From positions 36,845-100,844 of the IMG/VR virus record IMGVR_UViG_3300009130_000012: DNA of 64,000 nucleotides. One strand, 5' to 3'. A model generated the notes under the pieces. That model was not told the DNA's origin. It saw nothing but the letters and a program-made list of their open reading frames with translations, and searched no databases. A program made the translations under genes and the position numbers. This document shows positions 12,700 through 50,839 of this stretch, piece after piece. Numbering within the stretch: position 1 is the first letter of the stretch; the number at the start of each line of letters is the position of its first letter. This DNA comes from a virus.

Positions 12700-14664
12700 A
12701 TGGGATTCATCACTAAATTAGATTATTCAGACAATAGACAGATACGTCAAAGGGTAGAAACTCAAACTCAACTTTCTGGTGGTACTACATTCGGAGTTCC
12801 TTATACTGAGTTAGTTAGAGGTGTTGATGATTCTACTACTGGGGTGACATCTACTAGTAGTGGTGTGACATCTACTTTTTCTGGTAACACTGGTACTACT
12901 ATATTCTTTTTTGGTGATACTAGAATGGAATTAGCTGGTGCTGATTTAGAACCCATAACACCTAGTAATAGTGGGGACACTCAAAATGCTGGTGTCACAT
13001 ATACTGGTGATACCACGACTATAGTGAATAATAATCAAGTGTTTTTGACGTATACTGGAATTGGTTACAATTTAATAGTAACTAATTTTGAAGAGGTTTC
13101 TGCTGGGAATTATACTGGGGAAACAACAAGTGATTTAACTTTTTATAGTGGTAATACTGCAGATTACACTGGTAGTACTGTATGGTTAACTTCTGAAGAT
13201 TCAGCAAGAGTAAAAGGTGTGTTATATGCTAACGTATTAAGTGCCACTACTATAGTAGGGACAACAATTAGTGGAGTTACTGATAATTTTACTACTGGTT
13301 CAACACTTGTTGGTTCTACTGCGTATTTTAATAGAACTGATAGTCTTAGTGCTTACACTCTTGATTTGTCGTCATTAGTTGTAAATGATAATTTTACTAC
13401 TGGTTCAACACTTGTTGGTAATACGTTGTATTTTAATAGAACTGATAGTCTTTCAGCGTATACTGCTGATTTATCATCACTGGGTGGAGTTTCGTATGGT
13501 GTGTGTGCTGTATATAACTCTGGTGGTACACCAACTTATTATTCTGATTTAAGTGCAGCTATAACTGCTGCTAGTGCTGGAGATACTGTACAAATTTATT
13601 CAGACATTACAGAAACAGGAGCAGTTACTATAACTTGTAAAAACGGTGTTAACATTAACTTCAACGGATTTACTTATACGTTAAACAACGCAGGTACAGA
13701 TAACGCTTTTTCAGTACCTGCTGGTGTGTCAATGGAAATGTTTAACGGTAAGGTTTTAAGGTCAGGTGGAACAGGTTCGGTTTCTAACAGTTTAGCAATT
13801 CACACAACAGGAGCGGGAACATTCAAGGCTAATAACATGGTCTTTGAAAGTGATTTTGGAACTGCTGGACATGTTGGAAATTCTGCGAGAAGTTTTTACG
13901 GTGGAGTTTTTTACAGTTCGGATAGAGGTTTTTATTTAAGTAACGGAAACCTTTATAACGCAATTTGCAACGGTGGAACTAATGCAGGCTTGCAAATACA
14001 AAATAATGGAAAGGCTTATAGTTGTGAAGGTTACTCAAGTAGTAGTTATGGTATTTTCAATAATACTAGTAATGCTTATTTTTGCGTAGGTCGCTCAGAT
14101 GGAAATTACGGTTTTTGGGGTGCTGGTGGAAATTCTCACGATTGTAAAGGTTACTCAACTGCTAACATAGGTACTTACATATCTGCTAGCGGCTCTTTTT
14201 CCAATATTTACGGTTTTTCTTCATCTTCTTATGGTGTGAGAATATTGGGTAATGGCGTAGGGGTTATAGGTTATTCAACGGCTTCTCAAGGGGTTTACTA
14301 TTCTAACGGAGGTGGAAGTAGCCATGTAATCCAAGATGTAAAAGCTTCTTCAACAGCTGCTGCTGGTATGTATATTTTATTAAATGCTGGTAAGGTTGAG
14401 TTTTCTAATTTAGATGTAGGTTCAAGATGGAATGATGTTTCGGGACATGGAATAATAGTTAGTGGTTCTGATAATGATATAATTTTAAATGGAGGTAGTA
14501 TAAGGGTTGAAAATGCTTCAGCTAATTGTTTGTATAATAATGTAGCTAAAAGTTGTTATTTTAATAACCTTAGTTTTGTAAATTCAACAACGGCAGTTAA
14601 TGCTAATATTACAAACTTACAAACTAATACATCTGATGATTACGGTAATATTTTAGTAGGATAA
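12700..14664 (+). CDS. Tail fibre/spike with repeat blocks and beta-helix body
   Basis: This 654-residue protein has four visible parts. Residues 1-195 are a Thr/Ser/Gly-rich shaft. Residues about 195-263 hold two near-identical 35-residue blocks (period 105 bases from 13282), each with the core RTDSLSAYT. From about 265 a beta-helix domain starts with YYSDLSAAITAASAGDTVQI and runs through many short Asn/Gly/Ser rungs, with clear tandem rungs such as YSSSSYG. The end reads SDDYGNILVG, a cap shared with four other fibres. The body is a pectate-lyase-like right-handed helix fold of the kind used to bind or cleave surface polysaccharide. No catalytic residues can be assigned. Confidence 0.85.
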   Translation: MGFITKLDYSDNRQIRQRVETQTQLSGGTTFGVPYTELVRGVDDSTTGVTSTSSGVTSTFSGNTGTTIFFFGDTRMELAGADLEPITPSNSGDTQNAGVTYTGDTTTIVNNNQVFLTYTGIGYNLIVTNFEEVSAGNYTGETTSDLTFYSGNTADYTGSTVWLTSEDSARVKGVLYANVLSATTIVGTTISGVTDNFTTGSTLVGSTAYFNRTDSLSAYTLDLSSLVVNDNFTTGSTLVGNTLYFNRTDSLSAYTADLSSLGGVSYGVCAVYNSGGTPTYYSDLSAAITAASAGDTVQIYSDITETGAVTITCKNGVNINFNGFTYTLNNAGTDNAFSVPAGVSMEMFNGKVLRSGGTGSVSNSLAIHTTGAGTFKANNMVFESDFGTAGHVGNSARSFYGGVFYSSDRGFYLSNGNLYNAICNGGTNAGLQIQNNGKAYSCEGYSSSSYGIFNNTSNAYFCVGRSDGNYGFWGAGGNSHDCKGYSTANIGTYISASGSFSNIYGFSSSSYGVRILGNGVGVIGYSTASQGVYYSNGGGSSHVIQDVKASSTAAAGMYILLNAGKVEFSNLDVGSRWNDVSGHGIIVSGSDNDIILNGGSIRVENASANCLYNNVAKSCYFNNLSFVNSTTAVNANITNLQTNTSDDYGNILVG

Positions 14665-14683
14665 TAAATAAAAAATAAATAAA

Positions 14684-14872
14684 ATGACAAAAATATTAAA
14701 TCAAATAGTAGTACAAAATAATGTAGAAGGTATTGAAAAACGTATTATTATTCAATACACTAATGATGTTACAGAAGAAAGTTCACAAGTTATAGTTGAT
14801 TACAACTCATTAACAGCAGAAGAAAAAGCTACTTACGATGCTTTCATTATATTAAATAATTCTAAAATATAA
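14684..14872 (+). CDS. Small hypothetical protein in fibre cluster
   Basis: A 62-residue ORF starting 20 bases after the fibre gene and ending 6 bases before the next. It reads as a simple beta-rich N-terminal half (KRIIIQYTN) and a helical end (LTAEEKATYDAFIILN). It is unrecognised. Its position suggests a fibre chaperone or accessory protein, but the sequence does not show it. Confidence 0.65.
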   Translation: MTKILNQIVVQNNVEGIEKRIIIQYTNDVTEESSQVIVDYNSLTAEEKATYDAFIILNNSKI

Positions 14873-14878
14873 TAGAAT

Positions 14879-15460
14879 ATGGCAATAACAACAGTAAATA
14901 GTGGAGTTAACCAAAAAAAAGGTATTACATATACTCATATAACAGATTCGTCAGTTGACTGGACTGGTGTTACTAATGATACCTATTTCTATGATAAAGC
15001 TACTGATTTACCATATTATAAGAATTCTGGTGGTACAGTAATATCAGTATTTGAAGGTGGTGCTCCTTCTTTAAATAACGGAGAAGTATTTGTGGGTAAT
15101 GCATCTAATGAAGCTACTTCTGTAGCGATGAGTGGAGATGTTGCCATTACTAACGCTGGTGTTACCACAATACAGTCTGACGCTGTTACTTATGATAAGA
15201 TGCAAGATACTACTCAAGCAGCTTTATTAGGTAACGATAACCCAGCTGGAGGTACAGTTAATGAAATTCCAATAGTTGACCAATATTTAGCAACTGGTAC
15301 AGTAACAGCTTTATTAGAAAATACTTCTAACTGGGATGTAAACGGAAATTACACAGGAGCATCAATAACAGCAACATACCAAGGTCAATCACACTATGAT
15401 GGTAACTATTGGTTTACTGCAGTAGCTGATAACGTTTGGATAAGATTAATTAGAGGATAA
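14879..15460 (+). CDS. Short tail fibre protein with anchor module
   Basis: The 193-residue protein begins with the N-terminal module shared by the fibres at 43757, 46644 and 48860: ITDSSVDWTGVTNDTYFYD and then LPYYKNSGGTVISVFE (residues 21-58). The middle is a short repeat (GEVFVGNASNEATSVAMSG) common in phage fibre shafts. The end is Tyr/Trp-rich (QSHYDGNYWFTA). The shared N-terminus probably attaches the fibre to a common baseplate or fibre partner, with the remaining 130 residues forming a short shaft and tip. Confidence 0.75.
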   Translation: MAITTVNSGVNQKKGITYTHITDSSVDWTGVTNDTYFYDKATDLPYYKNSGGTVISVFEGGAPSLNNGEVFVGNASNEATSVAMSGDVAITNAGVTTIQSDAVTYDKMQDTTQAALLGNDNPAGGTVNEIPIVDQYLATGTVTALLENTSNWDVNGNYTGASITATYQGQSHYDGNYWFTAVADNVWIRLIRG

Positions 15461-15464
15461 AATT

Positions 15465-17274: not shown

Positions 17275-17784
17275 ATGAGTGCAACACCAAATGTAAATCT
17301 GTTAAAGATAAAAGGAAATAAATTTGATGCTACCGCCGCACCTACAGCTACTGATGATAGCGCATCTGGGTATTATGTAGGTTCGATTTGGGTTGATGTC
17401 ACAAATGATAGAGTTTATGTATGTGTTGATAACACAGCTACAAGTGCTATTTGGAAACTTATTAGTAAATTGTCAGTACAAGAAACCACCTCTACAGCTA
17501 CATTTACAATAGATGCAGACAAACAAAGTGAGGGAGTATTAACAGCAATGGCAGTAGCCACAACTATAGCGGCTCCAACGGGTAGCCCGTCTCAAGGTCA
17601 AAATTTAATTTTTAGATTTAAAGATGATGGAACATCAAGAACATTGACTTGGAATGCTATATTTAGAGTGATAGGAGTAACTCTACCAACTGCAACAACA
17701 GCAAGTAAAACACTTTACGTTGGTTGTAAGTATAATTCAACAGATACTAAATGGGATGTTGTTGCGGTAAAAGAAGAAGTGTAA
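17275..17784 (+). CDS. Short fibre protein with C-terminal jelly-roll-like module
   Basis: The 169-residue protein starts with a shaft-like segment (SGYYVGSIWVDVTNDRVYVC, about 31-50) typical of phage fibres. Its second half, from TATFTIDADKQSE to the end, is a paralogue of the last 100 residues of the large fibre at 48860-50839: both have TIAAPTGxPxxGQN/GWQ, FRxKDxGTxRT and KTLYVGCKY-type strands. The two genes lie 31 kb apart, so this module has been copied between the clusters. Confidence 0.72.
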   Translation: MSATPNVNLLKIKGNKFDATAAPTATDDSASGYYVGSIWVDVTNDRVYVCVDNTATSAIWKLISKLSVQETTSTATFTIDADKQSEGVLTAMAVATTIAAPTGSPSQGQNLIFRFKDDGTSRTLTWNAIFRVIGVTLPTATTASKTLYVGCKYNSTDTKWDVVAVKEEV

Positions 17785-21111: not shown

Positions 21112-23157
21112 ATGTCTGTAAATAATAACAATAGAAAGATTACACAATTACCTAAAATTACGACATCGGGAATGACTGATGACGATATTTTTGTGTTTGT
21201 TAATAGCGGTGCCACTAGTCAAGGTACATTGGGGGATATAGCTAGTTATTTTGCCACCAATACTGATACATTTTCAACTGGAGGTACTTATAATCAAACT
21301 GGCTCTACTATTACAATCGATAATAATCAAGGCGGTAGTTTCGATATTACTGGTATAACTACAAGTATTAATGGTGATAACGGTATTACAATACAAGATG
21401 GTGATACGGTAGAGTTGGGTGGTAGATTAAAGTCTGGTCTTACCACAATACAAGGTTTTAGTGGAGGTACATCTATATTACAGTTAGGAGACTCTTCAAA
21501 TAGAATAGGTACTTTATTTGGATTCGGAAACTTTATTAGCTTTACCGCTGGAGATGTAGCTGATGATACTGCTACACTTACTTTACTTACAGCTCAAGCT
21601 GGGATAATAACTGGTAAAAATGGTTACGTTGAAATAGGTACTAATGATGCTACTTTAGGTCAAAGTACTAGATTTAAGGTTGACCACGGTATCACGACAT
21701 TTACTGACACTATACCTAATTCTGCTGGAATACAATATGGTGCCGATTACTCTAATAACTATACTGATTTATCACTTATTACTAAAGGTGATGTTAAAAC
21801 TGGTAATATACTTTATGTAGATAATGTTAATGGTAACGATAGTACTGGGGAAAAGGGTAGTTTAGTTAATAAATATGCTACCATTTCCGCTGCTGAAAGC
21901 GGTGCGACAAGTGGTGATACCATTGTAGTAATGACGATGCAAAATGAAGAAGCTAATCTAGGTAAGAACCAGATTACTTATCATTTTTTACCTGGTACTG
22001 GTATAAAAAACACAACAACAACTGGTAGAATATTCAACGATAATGGAAAAACTGATAGTGGAGCAAACCCACTTTTCTTTAAAATAACTGGTTGGGCTGA
22101 TTTTACTTCAAGAACGGACCAATCAGCATTATGGGGGGGTACTCTGTATCTTTACGAAGGGTCTTCCGCTGAGTTTGAATTTAATAGTTCAACTATTTTA
22201 AACTTAGATGGTTCAAAGGCAGATTCTGGATATCATTTTTGGGCGCAAGCGGAATATATAAACGGTGCTGGGGCGGGTAAGTTAGCCACACTTAAAGGTA
22301 GGGTGTCTAGAGATGTGATAGGCGGTCATTATTTCTTGGGTGCTCATTCGGCAATTGCTAATATAGACGTTGGGGGTAATGTAGATGTATCCGCTATTTT
22401 TGTTAGTGCACAAGGTTGTGAATTAGTTGACGTTAATGTAGACCAAAAAGTAACATTAGGTTATTCTACAACACACAGTTTTAAATTTTTTCTAAACGTT
22501 GATGGGGTTCCCTTTTTCACTGGTAATATTGATACTATAGAAGGTACTAATATGATTAATGTTAGTGCTAAAATGGTTGAGTGGCAAAATGACGGGACTA
22601 ACCAAAATGGTATATGGGGTATTTTTAAAATATATGAGTATTATGATAACACAAACACACATATACGTAATAATGTTAATATTAATATTGATGAAATTTT
22701 AGTTAAAGATGGAACACAGACAGTTCAAAGACCATTTATAGTTTCAAGTAATATGGGTAACGATACTGAAACTGTAGTTAAATTTAATAACTGTAAAATA
22801 ACTATTGAAGATGGGTTTCCATTTACTGGTATTGCTTCTAGTTCACAAAAAGATAAATATAATATAATGTTTCAAGATTGTTCGATTGATTATCAAAGTA
22901 CTGGATTTACTTCTGGTTACACAATATTTGATACGTCATATGCTATGCCTCATTTTGATAATACTAGATTTAAAGTTTCTGACACATCTTATGAAATAGT
23001 TGGTAGTACTGTTGATAAAGAAATCGCAGTTTATGGTGGAGGTTTGTTTACTAATGGTGTCGTACCAGATGATATAGTAAATATTAATACTGAATTAGCT
23101 ATGTCTGCTGATACAACTAACGTATTTAGTGGATTAAATAATATAAAAATAATATAA
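21112..23157 (+). CDS. Tail spike with beta-helix-like body
   Basis: The 681-residue protein starts with a head segment shared in style with other phage spikes (KITQLPKITTSGMTDDDIFV). It then has a shaft block (GDNGITIQDGDTVELGGRL, about 82-101) that recurs in the 37572 fibre, and a linker QYGADYSNNYTDLSLITKGD (about 208-227), also found there. The body starts at ILYVDNVNGNDSTGEKG (about 232-248), a classic entry into a pectate-lyase-like beta-helix (YATISAAESGATSGDTIVV). The C-terminus (NTELAMSADTTNVFSG) resembles a trimerisation cap. It probably binds or degrades host polysaccharide. Confidence 0.82.
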   Translation: MSVNNNNRKITQLPKITTSGMTDDDIFVFVNSGATSQGTLGDIASYFATNTDTFSTGGTYNQTGSTITIDNNQGGSFDITGITTSINGDNGITIQDGDTVELGGRLKSGLTTIQGFSGGTSILQLGDSSNRIGTLFGFGNFISFTAGDVADDTATLTLLTAQAGIITGKNGYVEIGTNDATLGQSTRFKVDHGITTFTDTIPNSAGIQYGADYSNNYTDLSLITKGDVKTGNILYVDNVNGNDSTGEKGSLVNKYATISAAESGATSGDTIVVMTMQNEEANLGKNQITYHFLPGTGIKNTTTTGRIFNDNGKTDSGANPLFFKITGWADFTSRTDQSALWGGTLYLYEGSSAEFEFNSSTILNLDGSKADSGYHFWAQAEYINGAGAGKLATLKGRVSRDVIGGHYFLGAHSAIANIDVGGNVDVSAIFVSAQGCELVDVNVDQKVTLGYSTTHSFKFFLNVDGVPFFTGNIDTIEGTNMINVSAKMVEWQNDGTNQNGIWGIFKIYEYYDNTNTHIRNNVNINIDEILVKDGTQTVQRPFIVSSNMGNDTETVVKFNNCKITIEDGFPFTGIASSSQKDKYNIMFQDCSIDYQSTGFTSGYTIFDTSYAMPHFDNTRFKVSDTSYEIVGSTVDKEIAVYGGGLFTNGVVPDDIVNINTELAMSADTTNVFSGLNNIKII

Positions 23158-28001: not shown

Positions 28002-28055
28002 TGAGCGTTAAAAGTGAAATACGAAAGATAATTATAAGGATAGTTAGGTTGAATA

Positions 28056-28085
28056 AAAAAAAAACAGGGTTAACCCTGTTTTTTT
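28056..28085. terminator. Bidirectional terminator between converging units
   Basis: A perfect palindrome centred between 28070 and 28071 (AACAGGGTT/AACCCTGTT core) is flanked by an A run on the left and a T run on the right, so it can stop transcription from both sides. It separates fibre cluster 1 (plus) from the DNA polymerase gene (minus), whose stop is at 28089. Confidence 0.88.
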
Positions 28086-28088
28086 ATT

Positions 28089-40500: not shown

Positions 40501-40841
40501 CTGATAACTCATTAATTACTAAGAGAGACCTTGATAATAGAACAAATAGGTATACTCAAACTGGTATTACAGGTACAAGTGTAGTTGATTCAATTAGTAC
40601 AGGTACTACTGAAGCAGCTACATGGCATTATAGTGTTAATGATGGTTCTAATTTAAGAGCAGGTACTGTTGTGGCTGGTTGGTTAGGTAGTAATGTAGTT
40701 TACACTGAAACATCTACAACTGACATAGGTGATACTAGTTCGGTAACATTTGATGTAAATGAAAGTGGTGGATATATTAGACTTGTAGCTACAGCTACTA
40801 GTGGAACATGGATAGTTAAAGTTAACAGATTATTGATTTAA
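37572..40841 (+). CDS. Very long tail fibre with repeated shaft blocks
   Basis: This 1089-residue protein is the longest fibre. Residues 40-290 and 580-770 are tandem shaft blocks of 30-40 residues with the core TGGTLxGxxLVLDRNDSLSA, each ending in VDLS-type strands. A block DNGLTLTTGGTIELGGTIK (about 295-313) and a variant at about 800 match the 21112 spike. ANTRGIEYDRDISSGYTDNS (broken as GIEYDRD and YTDNSLITKRDL) recurs in that spike too. Its start overlaps the gp15-like gene. The protein is probably a trimeric fibre made of stacked beta-prism repeats. Confidence 0.85.
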   Translation: MSSYGKSSANVNKTIVLETIESGFDGTLTGCTSIVTNLVQSCTGNTSITMGTDLISTNDPIQLGSLSASTIFSGGTNLIDLIDNRDTYLSGSTLSGSTLILTRNDGFNVIQDLSSVNSGDTFVTGATYLASNDTITLSRNDDVDIDITGVTDTFVTGGTLTGSAILVLDRNDSLSAITVDLNPLLDDTNSFVTGSTFSDDTLSLTLNNGDTVETVINEFNNLTVSGDASVGGTLTASTVNANTYLSGGTNILDIVNANDTFVTGGTLVDKTLVLDRNDSLSAVTVDLSGLTTNADNGLTLTTGGTIELGGTIKNNSTKFLNENPLNFKLIRWGDADGSGSRFNAMGRVDTLTNAGRMYLDAVMPTQSALFEYKSRSFSNRLYAKKAGNVDMDFNPSSTFSGITHTQSETASSYFRKIYLTDDDGTGHTEYNQTTSLHQLDAADANNYTGRLTVTPGLTSIFSQDASGLAGYFFSPSLLFLTNKDSAGLLASGNNVQLQSDSNNYIWLNELITNDNILKDATTNKRGLRYTNFGEIDVSGTSANYSTLVGTSLVPKKYVDDEISSIVDNNDFTTGSTLVGNIAYFDRTDNLSAYTLDLTSLSASLSADTYTDSGSVSYVNEDGTLTLTLNDTSTVVITGFTDVQTTGSTLVGSTATFTKNDGSTFDLDLSALDVNDTFITGITFNPSNYQITATRNDGFSTSPIDLSILSADVTITGGTYDIDSGVVTFTNNSGGTFDVSGFTSGMTDSYTTSANISGNSITFDNNINGSNFYNVDLTPVLSGITLSGGNGITIGTGNTIDLGGLLTESVTILSGDTTNSLDIGGNTAGANLIQTRINAQSFQANMQTTYAGGGVGTYVNSNPGYWSVTNNIAGTSTSIHSVGPGALLSTFNDAGNNRTRQISVGNTEIKINAQNSTTNDANVMDMDETEISIYSVSGGTNELFRLKFDLTGETAQFIDNRANTRGIEYDRDISSGYTDNSLITKRDLDNRTNRYTQTGITGTSVVDSISTGTTEAATWHYSVNDGSNLRAGTVVAGWLGSNVVYTETSTTDIGDTSSVTFDVNESGGYIRLVATATSGTWIVKVNRLLI

Positions 40842-40904: not shown

Positions 40905-43739
40905 ATGGCAAACGAATTTAAGGTAAAAAATGGGATTATTGTTAATGGTGCGTATAGTGGTGGTACATTAACTGCTGACACTATCAATTCAAATGGTATT
41001 ATCACATCTGGTGGTACCGATTTATTGGATATTTTTACTAATGATTATACAACTGGTACTACTATCGTTGGAAATACTCTTTACTTTGATAGGACGGATT
41101 CTCTTTCAGCATATACTGCTGATTTATCATCACTTGGTGGTGCTACTGAATTAAATGATTTAACTGACGTAACAACAGCATTACCTAGTACTCCTACTGA
41201 GGCTGATGATGGTAAAATACTGTTTTATGACCACGATATTAGTCAATGGACTACAGATGATGCCGTAACTCATGGAACTGTGGTTATAAATGCTAAAAAA
41301 GATAGTGCTGGTACAATCGCAAAAGGATTACCAGTTTACTTAGTAGGATTTGATTCTGATTTACATACAGTAGAATTGGCAAACGCAAATAGTGGTTCTA
41401 CAATGCCAGTAATAGGGTTTGCTTCGGAACAGTTAGATAATAGTAATTCTAAACATGTAACCACTTTTGGAAAACTTACTGGTATAGATACATCATCTAC
41501 TGTTAGTACATTGAATCCTAATGGAGAAACATGGGCTGTTAATGATGCCTTATATATATCTACAACTACAGGAGGGTTAACAAAAGTTAGACCTACAGGT
41601 GGTAGTTCATTAATTCAGCGTATAGCTAAAGTTTTAAAAGTAAGTGCTACTGGTGGGCAAATATTTGTTTTTAATACCGCAAGAACGTCAGGGTTGCCTA
41701 ATCTTACTACTGATAATGTTTGGGTAGGAGATGTTAATGGTATTCCTCAAGAAGTAAATAAAAGTACTTTAGGTGGTAATACGCTGTATTCTGCTGATGA
41801 TTCATTAACTGGTAATAGACTTTTTAATTTAGATAGTAAGTCATTAACTATAACTGGAGGTACTACTAATAATGCTACTCCGATTAATTTTGAATTTGGG
41901 GGATTTTGGCAAGGATATACACGTTGGGGTGATGAAGGTGATTTACAAATCAAATCAAATAATAATAAACACCCGTTAAAAGTATTTAAGAAAACAGATA
42001 CTACGAATCCAACTTTACAAGTTAATTCTAGTGGGGGTGGTTTATTAACCGAATTATGGTCGTATCAAGATATAGGTGGTAGTACAACTAAAATTGACAT
42101 TAATAACACGTCTATTAGACATTATTTTGGGGGTGGTGAATATCACAGAATACAATTAGGTGGTGCTGGTTCGGGAGTATACTATTGGCAAAGTGGATTT
42201 GGTTCATTAGGTGGATTTGTAGTTGGTGGAAATTCTGTTATAGGTACAGAAAATATTTCTTTACAAGGTTCAACTCTTGTTAGTGATAAGTTTGAGATTC
42301 AAACTACAACAGATGGATTCTTGATGCCACGTTTGACAACGGCTCAAATGAATGCCATCTCATCTCCAGATACACACTTGGTTATATTCAATACAGACCT
42401 TAATGCTTTATATAGGTACAATGGTTCTGCATGGGTGGCTATGGCTGCTGGTTACGGTTTGGTGGGGGTAGTAAGAGATTCTGACAATGGAAATCCTACT
42501 TTCTATTCTGATTTACAATCGGCTTTAGATACATGTAAGGCATCTGGAAGTTATAATACTGTAACCTTGTATGGTAACCATACCACCACTACTGGAATTG
42601 TTATAGATAATACTTTTGACTATAAGTATTTAACGATAAACTTTAATGGTTTTAAGCTAGAAAACACACAATCAGATGCTACTCATACTCTTGAGGTTAA
42701 AAATCTAGTTCTAGGAGCCACTACAGTTTTATTAAATGGAAGCTTAATAAGAGAAAATGGAACAACAGGAAAATGTTTAAATCATAGTAGTACTACAAGA
42801 CATGTTCAAATGTCTAAAATGTATCTATATAATGAAAATTATCTAACACTAAATTTTGGGTCAAGTGTAGATACTGCATTTGACTTTGGTGGAAGCATTT
42901 TTGAAAGTGGTCCAAGTGCTACAATAGAGCCTTTAAGATTATCGTATTCTAATTTTAGAAACTTTACTGTTATAAGCAATTCTTCTCAATCTGCTTTATT
43001 TATGACTAATAGTGCCAATGTTACAGATTTTACTGCAATAAATACAAGTACTGGCGGTGGTGTAGTTACTCAAACTAGTTGTGTCGCATCAAACTTTTAC
43101 GTTGAAACTGTTAGCGGAAATGCTGTAGGTGGTGGTATTTTTAGTAATTTTGTTGCTAAGAGCGTAAGCGGAATAGCAGTAAATAGTCCAACCGAAGCAC
43201 ATGATTTTGTAGCAACAACTGGAGATAATAGAGCAGTTAATATTAGTGCTGGAGAGAATTTTTCAAATTTTAGAGCAGAAAATAACTCTTCTACGAATGC
43301 TTGTGTTTATTTGACTAATACAAATGAATGTGTTCAAGCTTATGCTAAAAATAAAGGAAGTGGTGTAGCTTTTCAAGTTTTTAGAAATCAAGCAAATAGG
43401 GCTTTTTCTTACAACAAAATAACAGCGATAAGTGAAGGTGGAATAGGTGCTTCAGTATCATCTAATCCAGGATTTAAAATATTATTTTCAGATTGTGAGT
43501 TTGTATCAAAGTGGGACAATGTTGGAGGTCATTCTGTTCAAATAGGTGGAAATGATACGGTTTTAACAAACTGCTCCCTTAGAGTTAGGAATGCTGGAGC
43601 TAATAATATTACAGCATCATCATCAATATCTGCTAAAGTAGTTAACTCTACATTTGATGGTGCGACTACACCAATAAACTCAAACGTAACTTTATCAAAT
43701 ACGTTTACTAGTGACCCATATGGAAATATAACTATATAG
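40905..43739 (+). CDS. Large modular tail fibre with beta-helix body and cap
   Basis: The 944-residue protein is a compendium of the modules in this region. A shaft block with RTDSLSAYTADLSSLGG (about 61-77) is followed by INAKKDSAGTIAKGLPVYLV (about 128-147, shared with the 48860 fibre). Next come NTLYSADDSLTGNRLFNLDS (about 294-313) and a trimerisation-like block MPRLTTAQMNAISSPDTHLV (about 470-489). A beta-helix begins at TFYSDLQSALDTCKASGSYN (about 527-546), and the end DPYGNITI is the shared cap. The start follows a late-type element. Confidence 0.87.
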   Translation: MANEFKVKNGIIVNGAYSGGTLTADTINSNGIITSGGTDLLDIFTNDYTTGTTIVGNTLYFDRTDSLSAYTADLSSLGGATELNDLTDVTTALPSTPTEADDGKILFYDHDISQWTTDDAVTHGTVVINAKKDSAGTIAKGLPVYLVGFDSDLHTVELANANSGSTMPVIGFASEQLDNSNSKHVTTFGKLTGIDTSSTVSTLNPNGETWAVNDALYISTTTGGLTKVRPTGGSSLIQRIAKVLKVSATGGQIFVFNTARTSGLPNLTTDNVWVGDVNGIPQEVNKSTLGGNTLYSADDSLTGNRLFNLDSKSLTITGGTTNNATPINFEFGGFWQGYTRWGDEGDLQIKSNNNKHPLKVFKKTDTTNPTLQVNSSGGGLLTELWSYQDIGGSTTKIDINNTSIRHYFGGGEYHRIQLGGAGSGVYYWQSGFGSLGGFVVGGNSVIGTENISLQGSTLVSDKFEIQTTTDGFLMPRLTTAQMNAISSPDTHLVIFNTDLNALYRYNGSAWVAMAAGYGLVGVVRDSDNGNPTFYSDLQSALDTCKASGSYNTVTLYGNHTTTTGIVIDNTFDYKYLTINFNGFKLENTQSDATHTLEVKNLVLGATTVLLNGSLIRENGTTGKCLNHSSTTRHVQMSKMYLYNENYLTLNFGSSVDTAFDFGGSIFESGPSATIEPLRLSYSNFRNFTVISNSSQSALFMTNSANVTDFTAINTSTGGGVVTQTSCVASNFYVETVSGNAVGGGIFSNFVAKSVSGIAVNSPTEAHDFVATTGDNRAVNISAGENFSNFRAENNSSTNACVYLTNTNECVQAYAKNKGSGVAFQVFRNQANRAFSYNKITAISEGGIGASVSSNPGFKILFSDCEFVSKWDNVGGHSVQIGGNDTVLTNCSLRVRNAGANNITASSSISAKVVNSTFDGATTPINSNVTLSNTFTSDPYGNITI

Positions 43740-43756
43740 AATAAAAAAGAATAATA

Positions 43757-46063
43757 ATGGCAATACAAAATATAAATTTTAACCCAAAACCTGAAAAGGG
43801 TGTTAGTTATTCAGCTATTACTGATAGCAGTGTCGATTGGACTGGTATCACTAATAATACTTATTTCTATGATAAGGCTACAGATTTACCATATTATAAG
43901 AATTCTAGTGGTACGGTTATATCTTTGTTTGAATCTGGTGGTGGTGGTGGTGGAAACACACTTTATTCAGCAGACGGAACATTAACGGGGGATAGAATAG
44001 TTGATTTAGGAAGTAATAACTTAACTTTCAGTGGAACGGGTTTAACAAAAATAATTAACGGTTCAAAGGAAGTTGGTATTAGTTCTTGGAATACCCACGC
44101 ATATTGGGCTATCAATAACGGTAATACTGCTTGGAGTTTAATTAGTGCAAATGCTTCTACTACTTTTAATGCTAACGAATTTGGAATTGCAAACGGTTCA
44201 ATAGTACCTGTTAGAATTTACAACGGTTCGAGCGTTGCCTTGGGTAACGTCAATAAAGCCAGTTTAAACACCGCTTACTCAGTACAAACCAACGGCGACA
44301 CTTTAATAGGCGGCGACTTACACGCTACAAACGGGGGTAACATTTTACAATTTGATTTTAACAACTACCCAAAAGTTAAAATTGGCACAGCGGCTCAAGA
44401 GTGGTGGCTAATTGAGGGCGACGGTACGGGTTCTGTATTTGACAATGGCGACCTATATTTTTATGATTCTACAAATAGTGATAGAAGAATTACTTTTAAA
44501 CAAAATAACGGAGGAACTATTATAGGTAATAATAAAACTTTAATAGGTACTGAGGACATTTCCTTACAAGGCGAAACACTTATATCAGAAAAATTAGAAC
44601 TATCAACAACAACGGATGGTTTATTAATGCCTCGTTTGACAACTGCTCAAATGAACGCTATTTCTTCACCAGATACACATCTATTAATATTTAATACTGA
44701 TTTAAACGCTCTGTATAGATATAATGGAACTGCATGGGTTGCAATTTCTGCGGGTTATGGAGTTATTGAAGTTATAACGGATTCGGACGCTGGGGTTCCA
44801 ACTTATTTCGCTGATTTACAATCGGCTTTAGAAACTTGTAAAACAAGCGGAAGTAATAACGTTATTAAATTACATTCTGACATTTCTCTGTCGGCTCAAA
44901 TTGATATTAATACCGCAGGAAGTGGAACGGGTAATGCTTATCAGTTTAAAAGTTTATTGATTGATGGAAATGGATTTGAAATAACTTTTGATGATGTTGG
45001 AACTACAAATGCTTTTGACATTAATTTAACGTCTGCATCTGAATTAATTTTTAATAATTTAAAAGTAAATAGAACTAGCGGAACGGGTACTCACTACGCT
45101 TTAAAAATAGATGGTAATAGTAACCAAAAGTTATCTATGAGTAATTGTTATTTTTACTCTAATAATGGTGGTGCTGCATATATTCAAGACATAACTGGTG
45201 AAATGTTTTCATTAGGTGGTTCAAGGTTTGAAAGTGATGGAAGTATTGATACTTTAACTTTTAGAAGTTTTAATATGTTCTTTAGAGATTTTATAACCAT
45301 TTCTAACGGTACTGGGGATGCTGTGTTAAATTGGAGTAATGGTAACATTACTGATTTTTATTGTGAAAATACAAGTACGGGAAAAGCTTACGACTCAAAT
45401 GCGAATGCTGTTGCTACTTTCTTTGTTGCAAAAAGTAATAGCGGTTTATGTGTTGATGCAGCTGTTTCTTCTTGTGTTGTTTCAAACTTTTACGCCGTTT
45501 CTGCAAGTGGTGTAGGTTTTCAAGGTTTTAACGCTACAAATTTTTACATTAAAACGGGCGACAATATAGGTTTATTAGCTGGTGCTTATGCTAATTTAAA
45601 AAATGGTTATGTTGAAAATAACTCGACTAGTGCAGCAATGGACACAAATACTATTGAGTATTGCCATAATATTACATTTTTGAATTTGGGTTCTGGTTAT
45701 GGTGCTGATATAACAAACACAATTAATTATAACAACAAAATAACAAATTGTACTTTTATTTCTGAAGGTGGTATCGGTGGATTTTTAGATACGATTGCAA
45801 CAAATATTTATAACTCGACATTTATATCAAGGTACAATAACGCTGCTGGACACGCTTGCGAAGTTGATATGAATGATAATATTTTAATGGGTTGTACTTT
45901 TATTGTTGAGAATAGTTCTGCTAATGGTCTTTATTCAAATACGGCTGTTACTGCAAAAGTTGCTAACTGTAATTTTGACGGAGCTACAACTGCAATAAAT
46001 TCAAATGTAACTTTATCAAATGCAAATACTTCTGATGCGTTTGGAAACATACTAATCGGATAA
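43757..46063 (+). CDS. Modular tail fibre with beta-helix body
   Basis: The 768-residue protein has the shared anchor (ITDSSVDWTGITNNTYFYD, 21-39), a poly-Gly linker, NTLYSADGTLTGDRIVDLGS (about 71-90), the block MPRLTTAQMNAISSPDTHLL (about 296-315), a beta-helix (TYFADLQSALETCKTSGSNN, about 353-372) and the cap SDAFGNILIG. A segment of about 270 bases (44200-44470) has markedly more G/C and different codon choice than its surroundings, as if it came from another genome. It follows the 40905 fibre by 17 bases. Confidence 0.87.
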   Translation: MAIQNINFNPKPEKGVSYSAITDSSVDWTGITNNTYFYDKATDLPYYKNSSGTVISLFESGGGGGGNTLYSADGTLTGDRIVDLGSNNLTFSGTGLTKIINGSKEVGISSWNTHAYWAINNGNTAWSLISANASTTFNANEFGIANGSIVPVRIYNGSSVALGNVNKASLNTAYSVQTNGDTLIGGDLHATNGGNILQFDFNNYPKVKIGTAAQEWWLIEGDGTGSVFDNGDLYFYDSTNSDRRITFKQNNGGTIIGNNKTLIGTEDISLQGETLISEKLELSTTTDGLLMPRLTTAQMNAISSPDTHLLIFNTDLNALYRYNGTAWVAISAGYGVIEVITDSDAGVPTYFADLQSALETCKTSGSNNVIKLHSDISLSAQIDINTAGSGTGNAYQFKSLLIDGNGFEITFDDVGTTNAFDINLTSASELIFNNLKVNRTSGTGTHYALKIDGNSNQKLSMSNCYFYSNNGGAAYIQDITGEMFSLGGSRFESDGSIDTLTFRSFNMFFRDFITISNGTGDAVLNWSNGNITDFYCENTSTGKAYDSNANAVATFFVAKSNSGLCVDAAVSSCVVSNFYAVSASGVGFQGFNATNFYIKTGDNIGLLAGAYANLKNGYVENNSTSAAMDTNTIEYCHNITFLNLGSGYGADITNTINYNNKITNCTFISEGGIGGFLDTIATNIYNSTFISRYNNAAGHACEVDMNDNILMGCTFIVENSSANGLYSNTAVTAKVANCNFDGATTAINSNVTLSNANTSDAFGNILIG

Positions 46064-46073
46064 TAATTAAACT

Positions 46074-46172
46074 ATGGTAGTTAATAATTTAAATACAGGA
46101 ATATAAAAAACTTTAGGTGTTGATTTATGGGCAGCTACAATAGATACTCAAGGTAATTTAGTACAATTGTAA
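46074..46172 (+). pseudogene. Small ORF interrupted by an in-frame TAA
   Basis: From ATG 46074 the frame reads MVVNNLNTGI, then TAA at 46104-46106, then KTLGVDLWAATIDTQGNLVQ(L) and a second TAA at 46170-46172, 33 codons in all. The part after the first stop looks like genuine protein and stays in frame, so a single substitution may have broken a small fibre accessory gene. Read-through is the alternative. Confidence 0.4.
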
Positions 46173-46188
46173 TATTTATATAATAAAA
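46173..46188 (+). promoter_or_regulatory. Late-type element
   Basis: Reads TATTTATATAATAAAA, 26 bases before the ATG at 46215 and identical to the element at 35994. Confidence 0.5.
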
Positions 46189-46214
46189 TAATAACTATAA
46201 TAAATTAAATTAAA

Positions 46215-46631
46215 ATGAACGCAAACATTTATGAGTGGGGTACAGACCCTAAAACTGGTCTTAAAAGAAGGTTAATTAGGGATACCTCATTAGTGCAAGA
46301 GGAAATGGATACTAATCCAAAGCCAAAAGTAGTAGTGCATTTAAGGCTACAAACATATGTTGAAAGTGACGGGATTATTACTGTTGTTACTGATGAAACA
46401 GCAGGTTATGAAGTTATAAAAGGAGAAATTTCAACTGACGTTAATGGGCTTGTTTTACCTAAACGTATTATTGACCCAAGTACTGGAGAGATAACTACAC
46501 CAATTGACCCAGAAACTGATGAGCCATATCCAAGAGATAATGGTTATGATAATATTATCATATTATCGTCATTACCAATTTCTTTTGATGAAGTTTTAGA
46601 TAAAGGAATTAAAGAATATTACAATATATAA
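46215..46631 (+). CDS. Hypothetical protein between fibres
   Basis: The 138-residue protein is unrecognised. It starts MNANIYEWGTDPKTGLKRRL, has a beta-like strand pair (PKVVVHLRLQTYVESDGIIT) and an acidic, Pro-rich C-terminal half (ITTPIDPETDEPYPRDNGYD). It sits 12 bases before a fibre gene and may be a fibre-assembly or tip protein. Confidence 0.65.
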   Translation: MNANIYEWGTDPKTGLKRRLIRDTSLVQEEMDTNPKPKVVVHLRLQTYVESDGIITVVTDETAGYEVIKGEISTDVNGLVLPKRIIDPSTGEITTPIDPETDEPYPRDNGYDNIIILSSLPISFDEVLDKGIKEYYNI

Positions 46632-46643
46632 TTTTTACAAACA

Positions 46644-48839
46644 ATGGCAGTAACTGTTTTAAATTCGGGGATAAATCAAGAAAAAGGTGTTACTTATACA
46701 GTAACAACTGACAGTAGCGTTGACTGGACAGGTGTTACTAATGACACTTATTTCTATGATTTAGGTGATGGTCTTGTACATTACAAAGATTCTACTGGAA
46801 CCGTTTTAAATATGTTTGTCTCTGGTGGTGGCGGTGGTTCTTCAATATATACTTCTGACGATACAATAGGTACAGGAAGGGTTGTAACCTTAACAGATAC
46901 CTTAACATTTGTAGGGGCTACAAATCAAGATGGATTACATGTTGATTATGGCTCTAGTTCAACATCATCCTATTCTAAAAAAGGTTTAAAGTTGACTTCT
47001 ACTGACGGCTACGAGTCAAGCTGGAACGCCCGCACAGGGTCATGGACATTTAGGGGAAATAATCCATTAACAGTACAAGGTAATAGCACAACAAATGATG
47101 TTTTCCAAGTAGCTTGGAATGGTGGAGGACTTTGGAAAGGAGGTACAATTACTTTAGGGCAAAACACTTATGGAAAAACTGAAATTTTAGAGGGCGGTGT
47201 AATTAGAATAACCGATATAACAGGCGTTGGAGTGCAACACTATATTTCGAGAGGGGCAAACAATCAACTTTCATATTTTTACGGACAAGGATTTCCAGGT
47301 TCTGCTGGAATGTTATTTGGTGGAACTTCAAAGGTTGGAACTGAAGACATTTCTTTACAGGGAGATACTCTTGTGTCTAAAAAATTAGAGTTATCCACTA
47401 CAGATGATGGTTTCTTAATGCCTCGTTTGACAACCGCTCAGAAAAATGCAATAAGTTCACCAGACACAAACTTAATGGTGTTTGATACGGACTTAAGTAG
47501 TTTGCAAAGATATAATGGTTCAGCATGGGTAGCTGTAGCGGCTGGTACTGGTATTGTTCAACTTAATCAAGAAGGTAGTAGTGGTGACCCAGTATTTTAC
47601 ACTGATGTTCAATCAGCTTTAAATGCAGCTAATACATCTGGTGGTGATATTACTATTACTTTACATGATAATATAACAACAACTACTGCTATTTCTACAA
47701 ATGCAACAGCAAATATTGATAATATAACTTTTGATTTAAATGGTTTTACTATAACGAATACTGCTAATGATTCAAGTGCTGTAATATTTAATAAATTACA
47801 AAATAATATAATTACAATAATAAATGGCTCTATAATAAAAACTACTGGTACTGGACATGCTTTACATTTTTCAAGTGGTATTGGGGATTTGTATATGTCT
47901 AATTGTTATGTGTATAGTGAAGCAGGTTCAGCTTTAAGGATAGATGCGTCAATAACACCAATTAATATATGGGAGTTAGGAAATTCTACCTTTAAAACTA
48001 ATACTGGCTATGGTGTTTACTTATCTGATGCGTTAGGGGGTATTTCATTAACAAACTTTATTTCTATTAGTACAGGTTCTGGAATGGCGTGTTTTTTAAA
48101 TGCTGGTGGAGATGTTACTAATTTTAAAGCTATAGCAGAAGGAACAGGAGCAGCTTTAAGAGTTAGGGCTAATGTAACATCAGCAACTAATTTTTATGCT
48201 GAATCTAATAGTGGGAATTGTATTTTATTAGAATCACTTAATCCAATGGTTAAAGATTTTACGGCTATAAGTGTATCTGGTTATGCTGTATTTTCTTCTG
48301 CTTCTGCATATAAAATAGAAAACTTTTATTGTAAAACTACTAGTGGAACAAGAACTATACAAGCCCTAGCTAATTCAATATTAATTAATGGTGATGTTTT
48401 CAGTGATAGCACTGATTGTGCCTTTATTGCTGATGCTGAAAGAGTTGAAAATGTAAACTTTACTACTAACTCAGGAAATTATGCTGTACTATCAAGATTT
48501 ACTACTAATTGGATTAATTGTACATTTAGGAATAAAGATGGTGTAGCTTTTTATAATTATAATTCTTCTACTAGTAAATTAAAAAAATGTACGTTTATAA
48601 GTGAAAAAACTTCTGGAGGTTCAGCGCATGCTGCCAATATTGTTGATGGAGCATCTGTAATTACTTTTGTTAATTGTGATTTTGAAGTTGCGGATTCAAC
48701 GGTTAATTGCATAAAGGCTGATGCAGCTATGGATATGAAAGTGGCTAATTGTTCTTTTGATGGTTCAGCAACACCTCTTAGTTCAAATATAACTTTAAAT
48801 CATTTAGAAAGTGACGCTTTTGGTAACGTTACCACATAA
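46644..48839 (+). CDS. Modular tail fibre with beta-helix body
   Basis: The 731-residue protein repeats the layout of the 43757 fibre: the anchor VTTDSSVDWTGVTNDTYFYD (20-39), a Gly-rich linker, a block SIYTSDDTIGTGRVVTLTD (about 71-89), LSTTDDGFLMPRLTTAQKNA (about 251-270), a beta-helix from VFYTDVQSALNAANTSGGDI (about 314-333) and the cap SDAFGNVTT. The central sector differs almost completely from its neighbours, consistent with exchange of the receptor-binding part. It starts 12 bases after the previous gene. Confidence 0.87.
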   Translation: MAVTVLNSGINQEKGVTYTVTTDSSVDWTGVTNDTYFYDLGDGLVHYKDSTGTVLNMFVSGGGGGSSIYTSDDTIGTGRVVTLTDTLTFVGATNQDGLHVDYGSSSTSSYSKKGLKLTSTDGYESSWNARTGSWTFRGNNPLTVQGNSTTNDVFQVAWNGGGLWKGGTITLGQNTYGKTEILEGGVIRITDITGVGVQHYISRGANNQLSYFYGQGFPGSAGMLFGGTSKVGTEDISLQGDTLVSKKLELSTTDDGFLMPRLTTAQKNAISSPDTNLMVFDTDLSSLQRYNGSAWVAVAAGTGIVQLNQEGSSGDPVFYTDVQSALNAANTSGGDITITLHDNITTTTAISTNATANIDNITFDLNGFTITNTANDSSAVIFNKLQNNIITIINGSIIKTTGTGHALHFSSGIGDLYMSNCYVYSEAGSALRIDASITPINIWELGNSTFKTNTGYGVYLSDALGGISLTNFISISTGSGMACFLNAGGDVTNFKAIAEGTGAALRVRANVTSATNFYAESNSGNCILLESLNPMVKDFTAISVSGYAVFSSASAYKIENFYCKTTSGTRTIQALANSILINGDVFSDSTDCAFIADAERVENVNFTTNSGNYAVLSRFTTNWINCTFRNKDGVAFYNYNSSTSKLKKCTFISEKTSGGSAHAANIVDGASVITFVNCDFEVADSTVNCIKADAAMDMKVANCSFDGSATPLSSNITLNHLESDAFGNVTT

Positions 48840-48859
48840 TTATAATAATAAAATAAACT

Positions 48860-50839
48860 ATGGCAATAACTACAACTAAATTACCAAATACTGCAATAGG
48901 TATAACGTACTCAGTAATAACTGACTCATCTTCTGATTGGGCCTCGGTAAGTAATGACGTATACTTTTTTGATAAAGATACGGATTTACCATATTATAAG
49001 AATTCTAGTGGTACAGTTGTATCTGTATTTGAAGAAGGTGGTGGTAGTAGTGATGTTGTTGAGTTATCGGTTCAAAAAGATTCTTCTGGAACAATAAATA
49101 AAGGTCAAGTTGTTATATTATCAGATTACGATGTTGGTGCTGATGTTACTACTGTTGAGTTGGCTGATAATAGTTCTGGTACAACAATGCCTGCAATAGG
49201 TATTGCAACTAGTAGTATTGGTATAGCTAGTACTGGTACGGTGGTTGTGTTTGGTAAAGCTACTGGATTAGATACTTCTTTATTATCATTAGGTGATGTT
49301 TATGTAAGTACCTCTGGAAACTTAACTAATACAAAACCTACTGGAACATCAATAGTTCAAAGAATAGGTAAGGTAACTAGAGTTAGTTCTACTGTTGGTG
49401 AGATAATAGTATTTGGTAGTGGTATGGATAATGTTAATTCTAGTACTGCTGATTATATAAGAACTTCTATAGTTGGTGGTGGAGTTTCAGCTTCATATGC
49501 TACTGCTGACCAAGTGGTACCAATGACAGTTCAATCAGAAAATAGTAACACTGATAAGTTTACTATGACTAGTAATGGTATTAGGGTTAATCAAGCTGGT
49601 AGATATAGAGTTAATTGTGGTACTACTATCGCTAGTACAAGTACTCAAAGAGCTAACCCTATTATGAAGATAACGGTTAATAATAATATAGCTCAAGATG
49701 CCAATGGTCAAGATTATCAGAGTTCTGAACACTACGCTAGAAACGCAGGTAGTGCAAATACCTCTACATCCTCTTTGGATATAGTACTTGATTTAGCCGT
49801 TAATGATATTGTTAGAATAATACTAGCAGAAGGTAGTGTTGCTGGAGATACAGGTGTTAACATTAATTCTACTGGTACATTTCTTGAGCTTAGTGAAATG
49901 GTAGCTGGTGTTGTTACACCAGTAACTGGAACTACTAAAGTTCTTGTTAAAGGTGGAATTAGTGCTAATCAAACAGTGGGTAATACAACACCAATAGTAG
50001 AATTTGTTACAACAGGAACTACTTCGGGTGTAGAAATTGATGTAAATGGTGAATGGGATAATACTAATCATAAATTCACTGTGGGGCCAAGTGGTGCTGG
50101 TACTTATTTTGTGCAAGGTCAAGTATTTTTAAACAATTCGAGTTCTTGGTCAACAATGTTTTTATATAAAAATGGTTCACTTTATGCGCCATTTGCAGGT
50201 TTTGGGACAGCAAATTCGTGGGACAATTTAGATGGTACTATCCCTATTGATTTAGTTGTTGGGGATTATATAGATATTAGAGTATTTTCATCAGCAAATG
50301 GTACTATTGATTTTAATAGTTGGGGTGATAGGCAATCATTTACTATAACTAAAGTTAGTGGTTTTCCACCACCAGGTGGTACAGATATTAATGCGGTACA
50401 TACTAATGTTAGTGGTGAGATTATTGCGTTAACTGAAAAAACATCGGTAGCTAATACTGATGAAGTTATTATAGAAGAGTCGGATGGTACTAAGAAGAGT
50501 ATGAAGCGTAGAAACTTTGTTGCTCCTATTACAACGTCTGTAGCTTCTACCGCAACATTAACTGTTGATGCTGATGCGACAGATATGGCTATTATTACAG
50601 CGCAAGCGGCTACATTAACAATAGCGGCACCAACTGGTACTCCTGGCGAAGGTTGGCAATTATTTTTTAGAATTAAAGATAACGGTACGGCTAGAACTAT
50701 TAACTTAAATGCTATATTTAGAGATTTCACTGGTAATTTTCCTAGTTCTACTACGGCAAGTAAAGAATTGTATTTTGGGTGTAAGTATGATGCTGTTTCG
50801 ACTAAGTGGGATATATTAGCTTGGAGGGTATTACCATAA
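48860..50839 (+). CDS. Tail fibre with two C1q/TNF-like heads
   Basis: The 659-residue protein starts with the shared anchor (DSSSDWASVSNDVYFFD, then LPYYKNSSGTVVSVFE) and the KDSSGTINKGQVVILSDYD block found in the 40905 fibre. Two domains follow that look like C1q/TNF jelly rolls: one around GIRVNQAGRYRVNCGTT and LDLAVNDIVRIILAEG (about 235-320), the other around FTVGPSGAGTYFVQGQVFLN (about 405-424). The last 100 residues are a paralogue of the 17275 protein. Trimeric C1q-like heads are known receptor-binding units in phage fibres. Confidence 0.83.
   Translation: MAITTTKLPNTAIGITYSVITDSSSDWASVSNDVYFFDKDTDLPYYKNSSGTVVSVFEEGGGSSDVVELSVQKDSSGTINKGQVVILSDYDVGADVTTVELADNSSGTTMPAIGIATSSIGIASTGTVVVFGKATGLDTSLLSLGDVYVSTSGNLTNTKPTGTSIVQRIGKVTRVSSTVGEIIVFGSGMDNVNSSTADYIRTSIVGGGVSASYATADQVVPMTVQSENSNTDKFTMTSNGIRVNQAGRYRVNCGTTIASTSTQRANPIMKITVNNNIAQDANGQDYQSSEHYARNAGSANTSTSSLDIVLDLAVNDIVRIILAEGSVAGDTGVNINSTGTFLELSEMVAGVVTPVTGTTKVLVKGGISANQTVGNTTPIVEFVTTGTTSGVEIDVNGEWDNTNHKFTVGPSGAGTYFVQGQVFLNNSSSWSTMFLYKNGSLYAPFAGFGTANSWDNLDGTIPIDLVVGDYIDIRVFSSANGTIDFNSWGDRQSFTITKVSGFPPPGGTDINAVHTNVSGEIIALTEKTSVANTDEVIIEESDGTKKSMKRRNFVAPITTSVASTATLTVDADATDMAIITAQAATLTIAAPTGTPGEGWQLFFRIKDNGTARTINLNAIFRDFTGNFPSSTTASKELYFGCKYDAVSTKWDILAWRVLP

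Follow-up and report, generated by a model that had tools for sequence, protein, structure and literature searches.

The long tail fibre of phage T4 consists of end-to-end segments encoded by consecutive genes (gp34-gp35-gp36-gp37), with the first N-terminus on the baseplate and the receptor tip on the last protein (PMC3004832). Branched Klebsiella and Ackermannviridae phages are the precedent for receptor-binding proteins (RBPs) displayed in parallel (PMC6872550, PMC11414711, PMC9700779). Domain shuffling of phage RBPs is documented as recent (at least 70% identity) tail fibre and spike mosaicism, at times across phage families (PMC10684548). It has long been asked how phages can acquire new receptor-binding parts and still keep the tail intact.

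We analysed a 64,000-nucleotide stretch (the window) of a 100.8-kb viral contig; its fibre genes, named here by their start positions, are listed in Table 1. Contractile-tail genes in the window (sheath, 51030-53813, phrog_23, E 1e-53; tube, 55023, phrog_4542; tape measure, 58503, phrog_167) mark the source as an uncultured contractile-tailed (T4-like) phage. The system that we propose from sequence would resemble the T4 long tail fibre in having consecutive-gene segments arranged end to end. Unlike in T4, the segments would be beta-helices with a standard joint between a C-terminal tail (C-tail) and an N-terminal block (ANCHOR), and segment number varies by locus. Pfam and PHROGs scans of the fibre proteins gave no match to T4 fibre families (gp34, gp36 and gp37 homologues) or, at the level of sequence families, to the T4gp10-like branching domain, and no gp35-like hinge protein was recognised. 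In branched RBP systems (Klebsiella, Ackermannviridae, phiKp24), too, a phage has many RBPs, docking elements are short and conserved, and bodies are exchanged (PMC6872550, PMC11414711, PMC9700779). Their links are N-terminal (T4gp10-like/XD domains, N-terminal peptides), whereas the candidate link here runs from one C-terminus to the next N-terminus.

Table 1. Fibre genes of the window and their blocks; roles are proposed.
Feature	Position	Strand	Content
Candidate starter 1 (12700)	12700..14664	+	own N-terminus, two SHAFT, beta-helix, CAP, C-tail; without ANCHOR
12700 SHAFT units	13285-13371 and 13390-13476	+	
12700 beta-helix	about 13489-14439	+	
12700 C-tail	14635-14661	+	DDYGNILVG
Candidate tip 1 (14879)	14879..15460	+	ANCHOR 14879-15058, then 130-aa C-terminal part; without CAP
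17275	17275..17784	+	phrog_3030 C-terminal domain 17476-17778, common to 17275 and 48860
21112	21112..23157	+	fibre-like; DNGITI unit 21265-21432 in common with 37572
26037	26037..27938	+	diverged ANCHOR 26037-26210, beta-helix, CAP, C-tail DTFGNIILD 27909-27935
37572	37572..40841	+	shaft protein, SHAFT x8; N-terminus related to G005 starter
Candidate starter 2 (40905)	40905..43739	+	SHAFT, KDS, MPR, beta-helix, CAP, C-tail; without ANCHOR
40905 KDS unit	41280-41708	+	
40905 MPR unit	42288-42437	+	
40905 beta-helix	42447-43472	+	
40905 CAP	43515-43730	+	
40905 C-tail	43713-43736	+	DPYGNITI
Joint unit	43651..43912	+	40905 C-tail end, 17-bp gap, 43757 ANCHOR
Candidate middle segment (43757)	43757..46063	+	ANCHOR 43757-43936, linker, MPR 44591-44740, beta-helix, CAP
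43757 C-tail	46034-46060	+	DAFGNILIG
46215	46215..46631	+	138-aa protein; possible fibre-assembly factor
Candidate middle segment (46644)	46644..48839	+	ANCHOR 46644-46823, linker, MPR 47382-47531, beta-helix 47541-48638, CAP
46644 C-tail	48813-48836	+	DAFGNVTT
Candidate tip 2 (48860)	48860..50839	+	ANCHOR 48860-49036, KDS 49058-49438, middle region; without CAP
48860 phrog_3030 C-terminal domain	50531-50830	+	

At least one shared block was found in each of ten proteins spread over two clusters, five of which are tailspike-like beta-helix proteins; the whole contig carries five ANCHORs and five helix/CAP proteins. All ORFs named in the initial annotation are present at their coordinates, and every named block was located in the ORFs claimed to carry it. 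ANCHOR is 45-71% identical among 14879, 43757, 46644 and 48860 (E 1e-14 to 1e-25) and is diverged yet recognisable in 26037 (E about 1e-10). SHAFT (RTDSLSAYT) occurs twice in 12700, once in 40905 and eight times in 37572. The DNGITI units of 21112 and 37572 are 46% identical over 59 aa (E 7e-6), and the KDS units of 40905 and 48860 are 43% identical over 144 aa (E 4e-21). The MPRLTTAQ (MPR) unit is present in 40905, 43757 and 46644, and these three share a helix entry and DxxGN end cap with 12700 and 26037. Block similarities are far above the chance level (mean identity 20%, 95th percentile 27% for random 60-aa fibre windows). Beyond the blocks listed earlier, 17275 and 48860 have a C-terminal domain in common (55%, E 4e-31). 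No block in common with other fibre proteins was found in 23979 or in 15465, a DUF285/BspA-like repeat protein. The earlier statement that central parts differ almost completely does not hold for 40905, 43757 and 46644, whose centres are homologous (34-37% over 529-716 aa, E 1e-74 to 1e-104). The only unalignable part among these three is the ANCHOR-MPR linker (46644 aa 60-247), which is predicted to lack structure.

Low-complexity sequence, set beforehand as the explanation that would undo the shared blocks, was ruled out: a right-handed beta-helix is predicted with confidence for the end-cap family, and small folded units are predicted for ANCHOR and MPR. The AF2 monomer model of 46644 from MPR to the end has a right-handed parallel beta-helix body (pLDDT 89.6). 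Foldseek matches to this body include the HK620, CBA120 TSP3 and P22 tailspikes, which share its right-handed beta-helix fold, as well as other beta-helix proteins; the likeness to these tailspikes is at fold level only (E about 2e-3, TM 0.3, 10-11% identity). PDB sequence searches with 46644 and 48860 gave no match, and the ANCHOR profile returned a single weak PDB match, to an antifreeze protein (E 0.025), which we take as chance. The ANCHOR and MPR models are both ordered strand-helix-three strands; profile comparison gives no support for a single sequence family (p 0.1). Tail residues T, D, G and N are within the top ten conserved of 485 alignment columns. The C-tail has low confidence in the 46644 monomer model, as expected if it is a docking peptide.

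We propose that the two clusters probably encode tail-fibre segments made of exchangeable modules and joined end to end, in gene order, via tail and ANCHOR. The [DE]xxGN C-tail would be the peptide that docks onto the ANCHOR at the N-terminus of the next-encoded protein, so that segments would assemble as 40905>43757>46644>48860. The fibre would start with 40905 (own virion-side N-terminus and tail, without ANCHOR), be extended by 43757 and 46644 (ANCHOR and tail each) and end with 48860 (ANCHOR, without tail); 12700>14879 would be a two-part version. The modules in play would be SHAFT, KDS, MPR, beta-helix, CAP, phrog_3030 and other tips, and receptor binding presumably resides in the helices and terminal tips. 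Such a fibre would, we infer, be closer to T4 gp34-36-37 than to a set of parallel spikes.

Newly found here are a tail-then-ANCHOR rule and the covariation of the tail with the N-terminus of the next gene's product, which is stronger than that of either with the protein to which it belongs. Among previously unseen loci, fetched by ANCHOR alone, the gene upstream of an ANCHOR gene ends in [DE]xxG[ND] in 36 of 49 assessable cases, compared with 6 of 232 control genes (Fisher 3e-28, uncorrected for ancestry). Tailed helix/CAP genes have an ANCHOR gene behind them in 53 cases and lack one in 8; for tailless helix/CAP genes the counts are 0 and 4. Across 55 joints, the tail covaries with the first 20 aa of the next protein (rho 0.60), less with its own CAP (rho 0.48) and hardly with the next protein's body (rho 0.02). 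Tail against the next protein's first 20 aa gives rho 0.65 in 44 non-redundant joints (Mantel p<0.0005), 0.32 (p 0.01) in the non-QGN group and 0.15 in 15 close-spaced joints. Part of this covariation stems from common descent and DNA linkage. In three phages whose upstream bodies all differ, as do their downstream bodies, the tail (N/P)FTSDPYGNITI stands ahead of ANCHORs of the NINFNPKPEKG type. A second class of ANCHOR (GIQ.TKV), spotted post hoc, follows TEVIYA-like C-termini in 9 of 10 cases, as against 0 of 61 for class A.

The initial annotation offered, as one of two readings, several receptor specificities presented at once, as would result if ANCHOR docked every fibre to one site on the baseplate or another tail protein. 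One genome with many fibre genes, combining a single N-terminal domain with differing C-termini, fits such parallel RBPs. So do the tandem tailless ANCHOR genes of L128, L178 and L100, for which an end-to-end model needs a hub or alternative tips. However, ANCHOR is absent from the starters, and one ANCHOR family is preceded by fourteen starter N-termini that are mutually unrelated by blastp, which argues against docking on a phage-specific baseplate. In addition, the ANCHOR class goes with the kind of C-terminus upstream of it, and most other tested ANCHOR carriers have no recognisable sheath, so that no common baseplate is evident. We consider parallel docking doubtful, and the block grammar points to end-to-end segments over parallel spikes. 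Exceptions to this grammar are 26037, which has ANCHOR and tail though its upstream gene is tailless and no ANCHOR gene lies behind it, and L093, L097, L165 and L167, which also terminate on a tail.

Some ANCHOR proteins, at about 180-215 aa, are short and lie directly behind a helix gene, as might an assembly chaperone or cap that acts through the tail to fold the helix trimer encoded upstream and is not itself a fibre segment. This role is very unlikely for the family, many members of which are 450-1050 aa long and themselves bear helices, KDS or phrog_3030 modules. The small separate 46215-type gene is a better chaperone candidate; its 138-aa product has no Pfam match, and its relatives adjoin helix/CAP genes in four other phages (G003, L097, L108, L164).

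Identity profiles show module transfer between this phage and others, one of them of a different virion type (G003; portal phrog_11226, TMP phrog_1533). First, 46644 aa ~248-731 is 77-91% identical in G002/L101, G001/L100 and G003/L103, where the N-termini ahead of it are unrelated. In both G001 and G002, identity to 46644 per 25 aa climbs at the MPR unit, from 12-24% to 92-96%; in one of the three carriers of this body the jump lies at the helix entry, not at the MPRLTTAQ unit. The body DNA is 82-85% identical over 1.4-1.7 kb, compared with 60% for the G002 sheath. Second, 48860 aa 69-350 is 86% identical in G002 (DNA 88.5%, 872 bp), behind a different linker of ~440 aa. These comparisons show that swap junctions fall at module borders: behind ANCHOR, at either the MPRLTTAQ unit or the helix entry, and ahead of the final ~30 residues. 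Relative to the described shuffling (PMC10684548), the exchange points here coincide with a repeated block set and a joint that spans two genes. Although assemblers are known to trip on conserved blocks, it is extremely improbable that the mosaics are metagenome assembly errors: the shared modules are 9-23% apart in amino acids and thus not identical reads, and a given architecture turns up in more than one sample (L102/L103; L104/L137; L116/L118).

The suggestion that fibres recombine through shared blocks is thus strongly supported as exchange between phages; recent exchange inside the genome was not seen, internal copies being only 67-85% alike in DNA. A sibling contig (L010) is 99.8% identical over 7.3 kb, with 16 differences; 6 of these lie no more than 75 bp from 46644, though in a stretch that is also the contig end.

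The joint unit recurs in L100 and L093 as a single DNA unit between differing bodies, non-coding gap included (largely 72-96% identity per 25-bp window). This is also what a mere homology arm would look like, with borders kept for recombination and no protein contact. We regard that reading as unlikely, as covariation is still 0.54 in 40 joints with gaps >150 bp, some enclosing another gene, the second joint is class-specific, and contigs without ANCHOR have helix/CAP proteins with altered or absent DxxGN tails (except L097). With a standard protein joint, any body with the right ends would be insertable, which would account for the shuffling.

A defined joint travelling as a unit would explain body exchange across unrelated phages and would allow the make-up and order of a fibre to be read from its sequence alone. 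Tail and ANCHOR form a directly testable candidate interacting pair in an environmental group. It is about an even call whether they constitute a standardised plug-and-socket system, in which a C-terminal peptide and its cognate ANCHOR, with at least two orthogonal specificities, would build variable-length fibres across unrelated phage types, following gene order and using parts that can be freely exchanged. Such a system was not found in named phage records: a search of 50,697 of them gave no ANCHOR relative. A viral contig search with 12700 gave no relative, yet L100 holds one at 54%; 12700 and G005:39950 have their first 175 aa in common at 46%. Two pointers suggest a possible Bacteroidota host: the sheath match to a Flavobacterium phage (35% over 276 aa) and one Flavobacteriales MAG contig that carries ANCHOR.

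Every shared block named in the initial annotation was confirmed by comparing the proteins all against all, by motif positions and by profile HMMs, and at least one block is common to ten proteins (named by window start coordinate: 12700, 14879, 17275, 21112, 26037, 37572, 40905, 43757, 46644 and 48860). The claim that their centres differ almost completely fails for 40905, 43757 and 46644, which, judged by sequence, are paralogues across their C-terminal 500–700 residues (34–37% identical). A right-handed beta-helix is predicted with high confidence for the 46644 body (pLDDT 89.6); its resemblance to tailspikes is confined to the fold (E about 2e-3, TM about 0.3). Structure prediction also suggests small folded units for the N-terminal ANCHOR (aa 20–56) and the MPRLTTAQ (MPR) unit (aa 261–299), with no structure predicted for the linker between them.

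Block maps over all loci place, ahead of the ANCHOR gene, a gene whose protein ends in a short C-terminal DxxGN tail. We scored this prediction only on previously unseen loci, from 78 loci fetched by ANCHOR alone and one MAG locus. A DxxGN-type tail is encoded upstream of 36 of the 49 assessable ANCHOR genes versus 6 of 232 control genes (Fisher 3e-28, a statistic that ignores shared ancestry, so that p values overstate the independence of the loci). Proteins with a beta-helix body and end cap (helix/CAP) are followed by an ANCHOR gene in 53 of 61 cases when they carry a tail and in 0 of 4 when they do not. The ten searched ANCHOR-less helix contigs have altered or missing tails wherever the gene end is visible, except L097; the related sequences all come from metagenomic contigs, often fragments, so an ANCHOR-less contig need not mean an ANCHOR-less phage.

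The two sides of this joint covary. Tail distances correlate with those of the next protein's first 20 residues across 55 joints (rho 0.60) and across 44 non-redundant joints (rho 0.65, Mantel p<0.0005), compared with 0.48 for the tail and its own CAP and 0.02 for the tail and the next protein's body. Controlling for helix, CAP, ANCHOR core and body leaves a partial correlation of 0.52. Joints with gaps above 150 bp still covary (0.54), whereas values drop to 0.32 (p 0.01) in the non-QGN subset and to 0.15 in the 15 short-gap joints. The tail TSDPYGNITI precedes NINFNPKPEKG-type ANCHORs in the window and in two other loci (L093 and L100) amid different upstream and downstream bodies, a natural experiment that illustrates tail/ANCHOR pairing. 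A second ANCHOR class, GIQ.TKV, noticed after the fact on related loci, follows a TEVIYA-like C-terminus in 9 of 10 cases and never a DxxGN tail; none of 61 main-class ANCHORs lies behind a TEVIYA end.

Module exchange and the joint statistics are shown from sequence; from them we infer, as the most likely mode of working, that these fibres assemble from segments end to end. A chain would start with a protein having its own virion-side N-terminus and a C-terminal tail, continue through proteins carrying both ANCHOR and tail, and end with a protein carrying ANCHOR only. The window chains would be 40905 > 43757 > 46644 > 48860 and 12700 > 14879. 26037 is an exception, with both ANCHOR and tail and neither partner adjacent; the whole contig encodes five ANCHORs and five helix/CAP proteins. 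ANCHOR is unlikely to be a classical virion anchor. Tail-bearing genes without ANCHOR have 14 blastp-unrelated N-termini followed by one ANCHOR family, and a recognisable sheath occurs in 2 of the 25 ANCHOR-carrier records searched. Sharing of this kind would be surprising for a domain that docks onto a phage-specific baseplate, but expected for one that docks onto the shared C-terminal tail.

The T4 long tail fibre likewise consists of consecutive segments, gp34 (baseplate-attached), gp35 (hinge), gp36 and gp37 (PMC3004832), although we found no homology to it in the window fibre proteins scanned. In the branched systems of Klebsiella phages and Ackermannviridae, receptor-binding proteins (RBPs) are linked by gp10-like domains and peptides at their N-termini (PMC6872550, PMC11414711); none of these was matched in the window fibre proteins scanned. 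Because recent RBP domain shuffling has already been well documented (PMC10684548), shuffling by itself is no novelty. A limited literature search found no precedent for the two-gene joint and its classes, which, within that search, are the new part. A search of 50,697 named phage records gave no ANCHOR match.

Block exchange by recombination, also proposed initially, is borne out between phages, at the level of sequence, most clearly by the 46644 body, which lies behind unalignable upstream residues in three other viral contigs (G001, G002 and G003). From about residue 248 onward, 46644 is 77–91% identical to their proteins. Against G001 and G002, the 25-residue identity profile rises from 12–24% to 92–96% at the MPRLTTAQ unit (the G001 contig starts only 23 residues upstream of this switch). 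The G002 homologue has a 43757-like N-terminal part instead; the G003 homologue has an MPR unit of the 43757 kind and switches at helix entry. Portal, terminase and tape measure of the G003 phage all differ from the window's. Sheath identity between G002 and the window is 60%, so the G002 helix (77–80%) was most likely exchanged, not inherited. Residues 69–350 of 48860 match part of a G002 protein (86% identity; DNA 88.5% over 872 bp) that has about 440 other residues between ANCHOR and that part. The 26037 helix recurs (56–63%) at the C-terminus of long chain-starter proteins in G002 and G005, and the phrog_3030 domain is joined to ANCHOR in L164, to the KDS unit in L090 and L092, and to another N-terminus in 17275. 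Assembly error is an unlikely source of these mosaics, given the sequence divergence between copies of a shared module and the reappearance of the same architectures in samples taken independently.

Coordinates of phage genes and recurrent small genes (ORFs are mechanical calls)
Feature	Sequence	Position	Strand
Sheath	window	51030	
Tube	window	55023	
Tape measure	window	58503	
Family B DNA polymerase	window	28089-31328	-
GNAT acetyltransferase	window	3149	-
DegT aminotransferase	window	5053	-
GT2/GT4 glycosyltransferase	window	6247	-
Weak GT4 match	window	9116	-
138-140-aa protein	window	46215-46631	
138-140-aa protein	L164	5576-5998	
138-140-aa protein	L097	11885-12295	
138-140-aa protein	G003	20378-20794	
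About 95-107-aa gene (example)	L165	5679-5975	
About 95-107-aa gene (example)	L196	5709-5999	

The window spans positions 36845–100844 of an IMG/VR virus contig of 100.8 kb. Its sheath, tube and tape measure genes identify the window phage as contractile-tailed and T4-like. At least 80 viral-contig relatives of the sheath family are 42–65% identical, with one sibling exception at 100%. An inverted repeat at 28055–28088 (94% over 34 bp) lies in the gap separating 26037 from the DNA polymerase gene and is possibly a bidirectional terminator. A sugar-gene cluster lies near a 12700-type fibre gene in the window (1753–10330, minus strand) and in G005 (about 15–34 kb, assigned from N-terminal sequence only); possible uses are glycosylation of Thr/Ser-rich fibres or host surface sugars. 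The fibre cluster also contains a DUF285/BspA-like repeat protein (15465–17087), with a relative (L065 401–2020, 30%) close to another phage's sheath gene.

The 138–140-aa protein, whose family was not recognised, recurs directly behind helix/CAP genes, including in phages without ANCHOR, and is a candidate fibre-assembly factor. At many ANCHOR loci, the about 95–107-aa gene sits between the CAP and ANCHOR genes, a few bases upstream of the latter. In L100 (10608–12971), an ANCHOR gene lies on either side of a GT25 glycosyltransferase gene. The ANCHOR DNA of the two is 89% identical over 190 bp, their C-terminal parts differ, and the pair looks like duplicated sockets with alternative tips. 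T-E-[DN]-I-S-L-Q-G-x-T-L-[IV], just ahead of each MPR unit (window 40905–48836), resembles the tail T-x-D-x-x-G-N-I and, short as the motif is, may be a version of the joint inside the protein. L132 (9947–12889) encodes a helix/CAP protein that combines three MPR units with an apparent N-terminal signal peptide; this may be a secreted, and possibly cellular, protein that also uses the module. The sibling contig L010 is 99.8% identical to the window with 16 differences, 6 of which fall within 75 bp of the 46644 helix at the contig end (L010 1–75; window 48293–48367).
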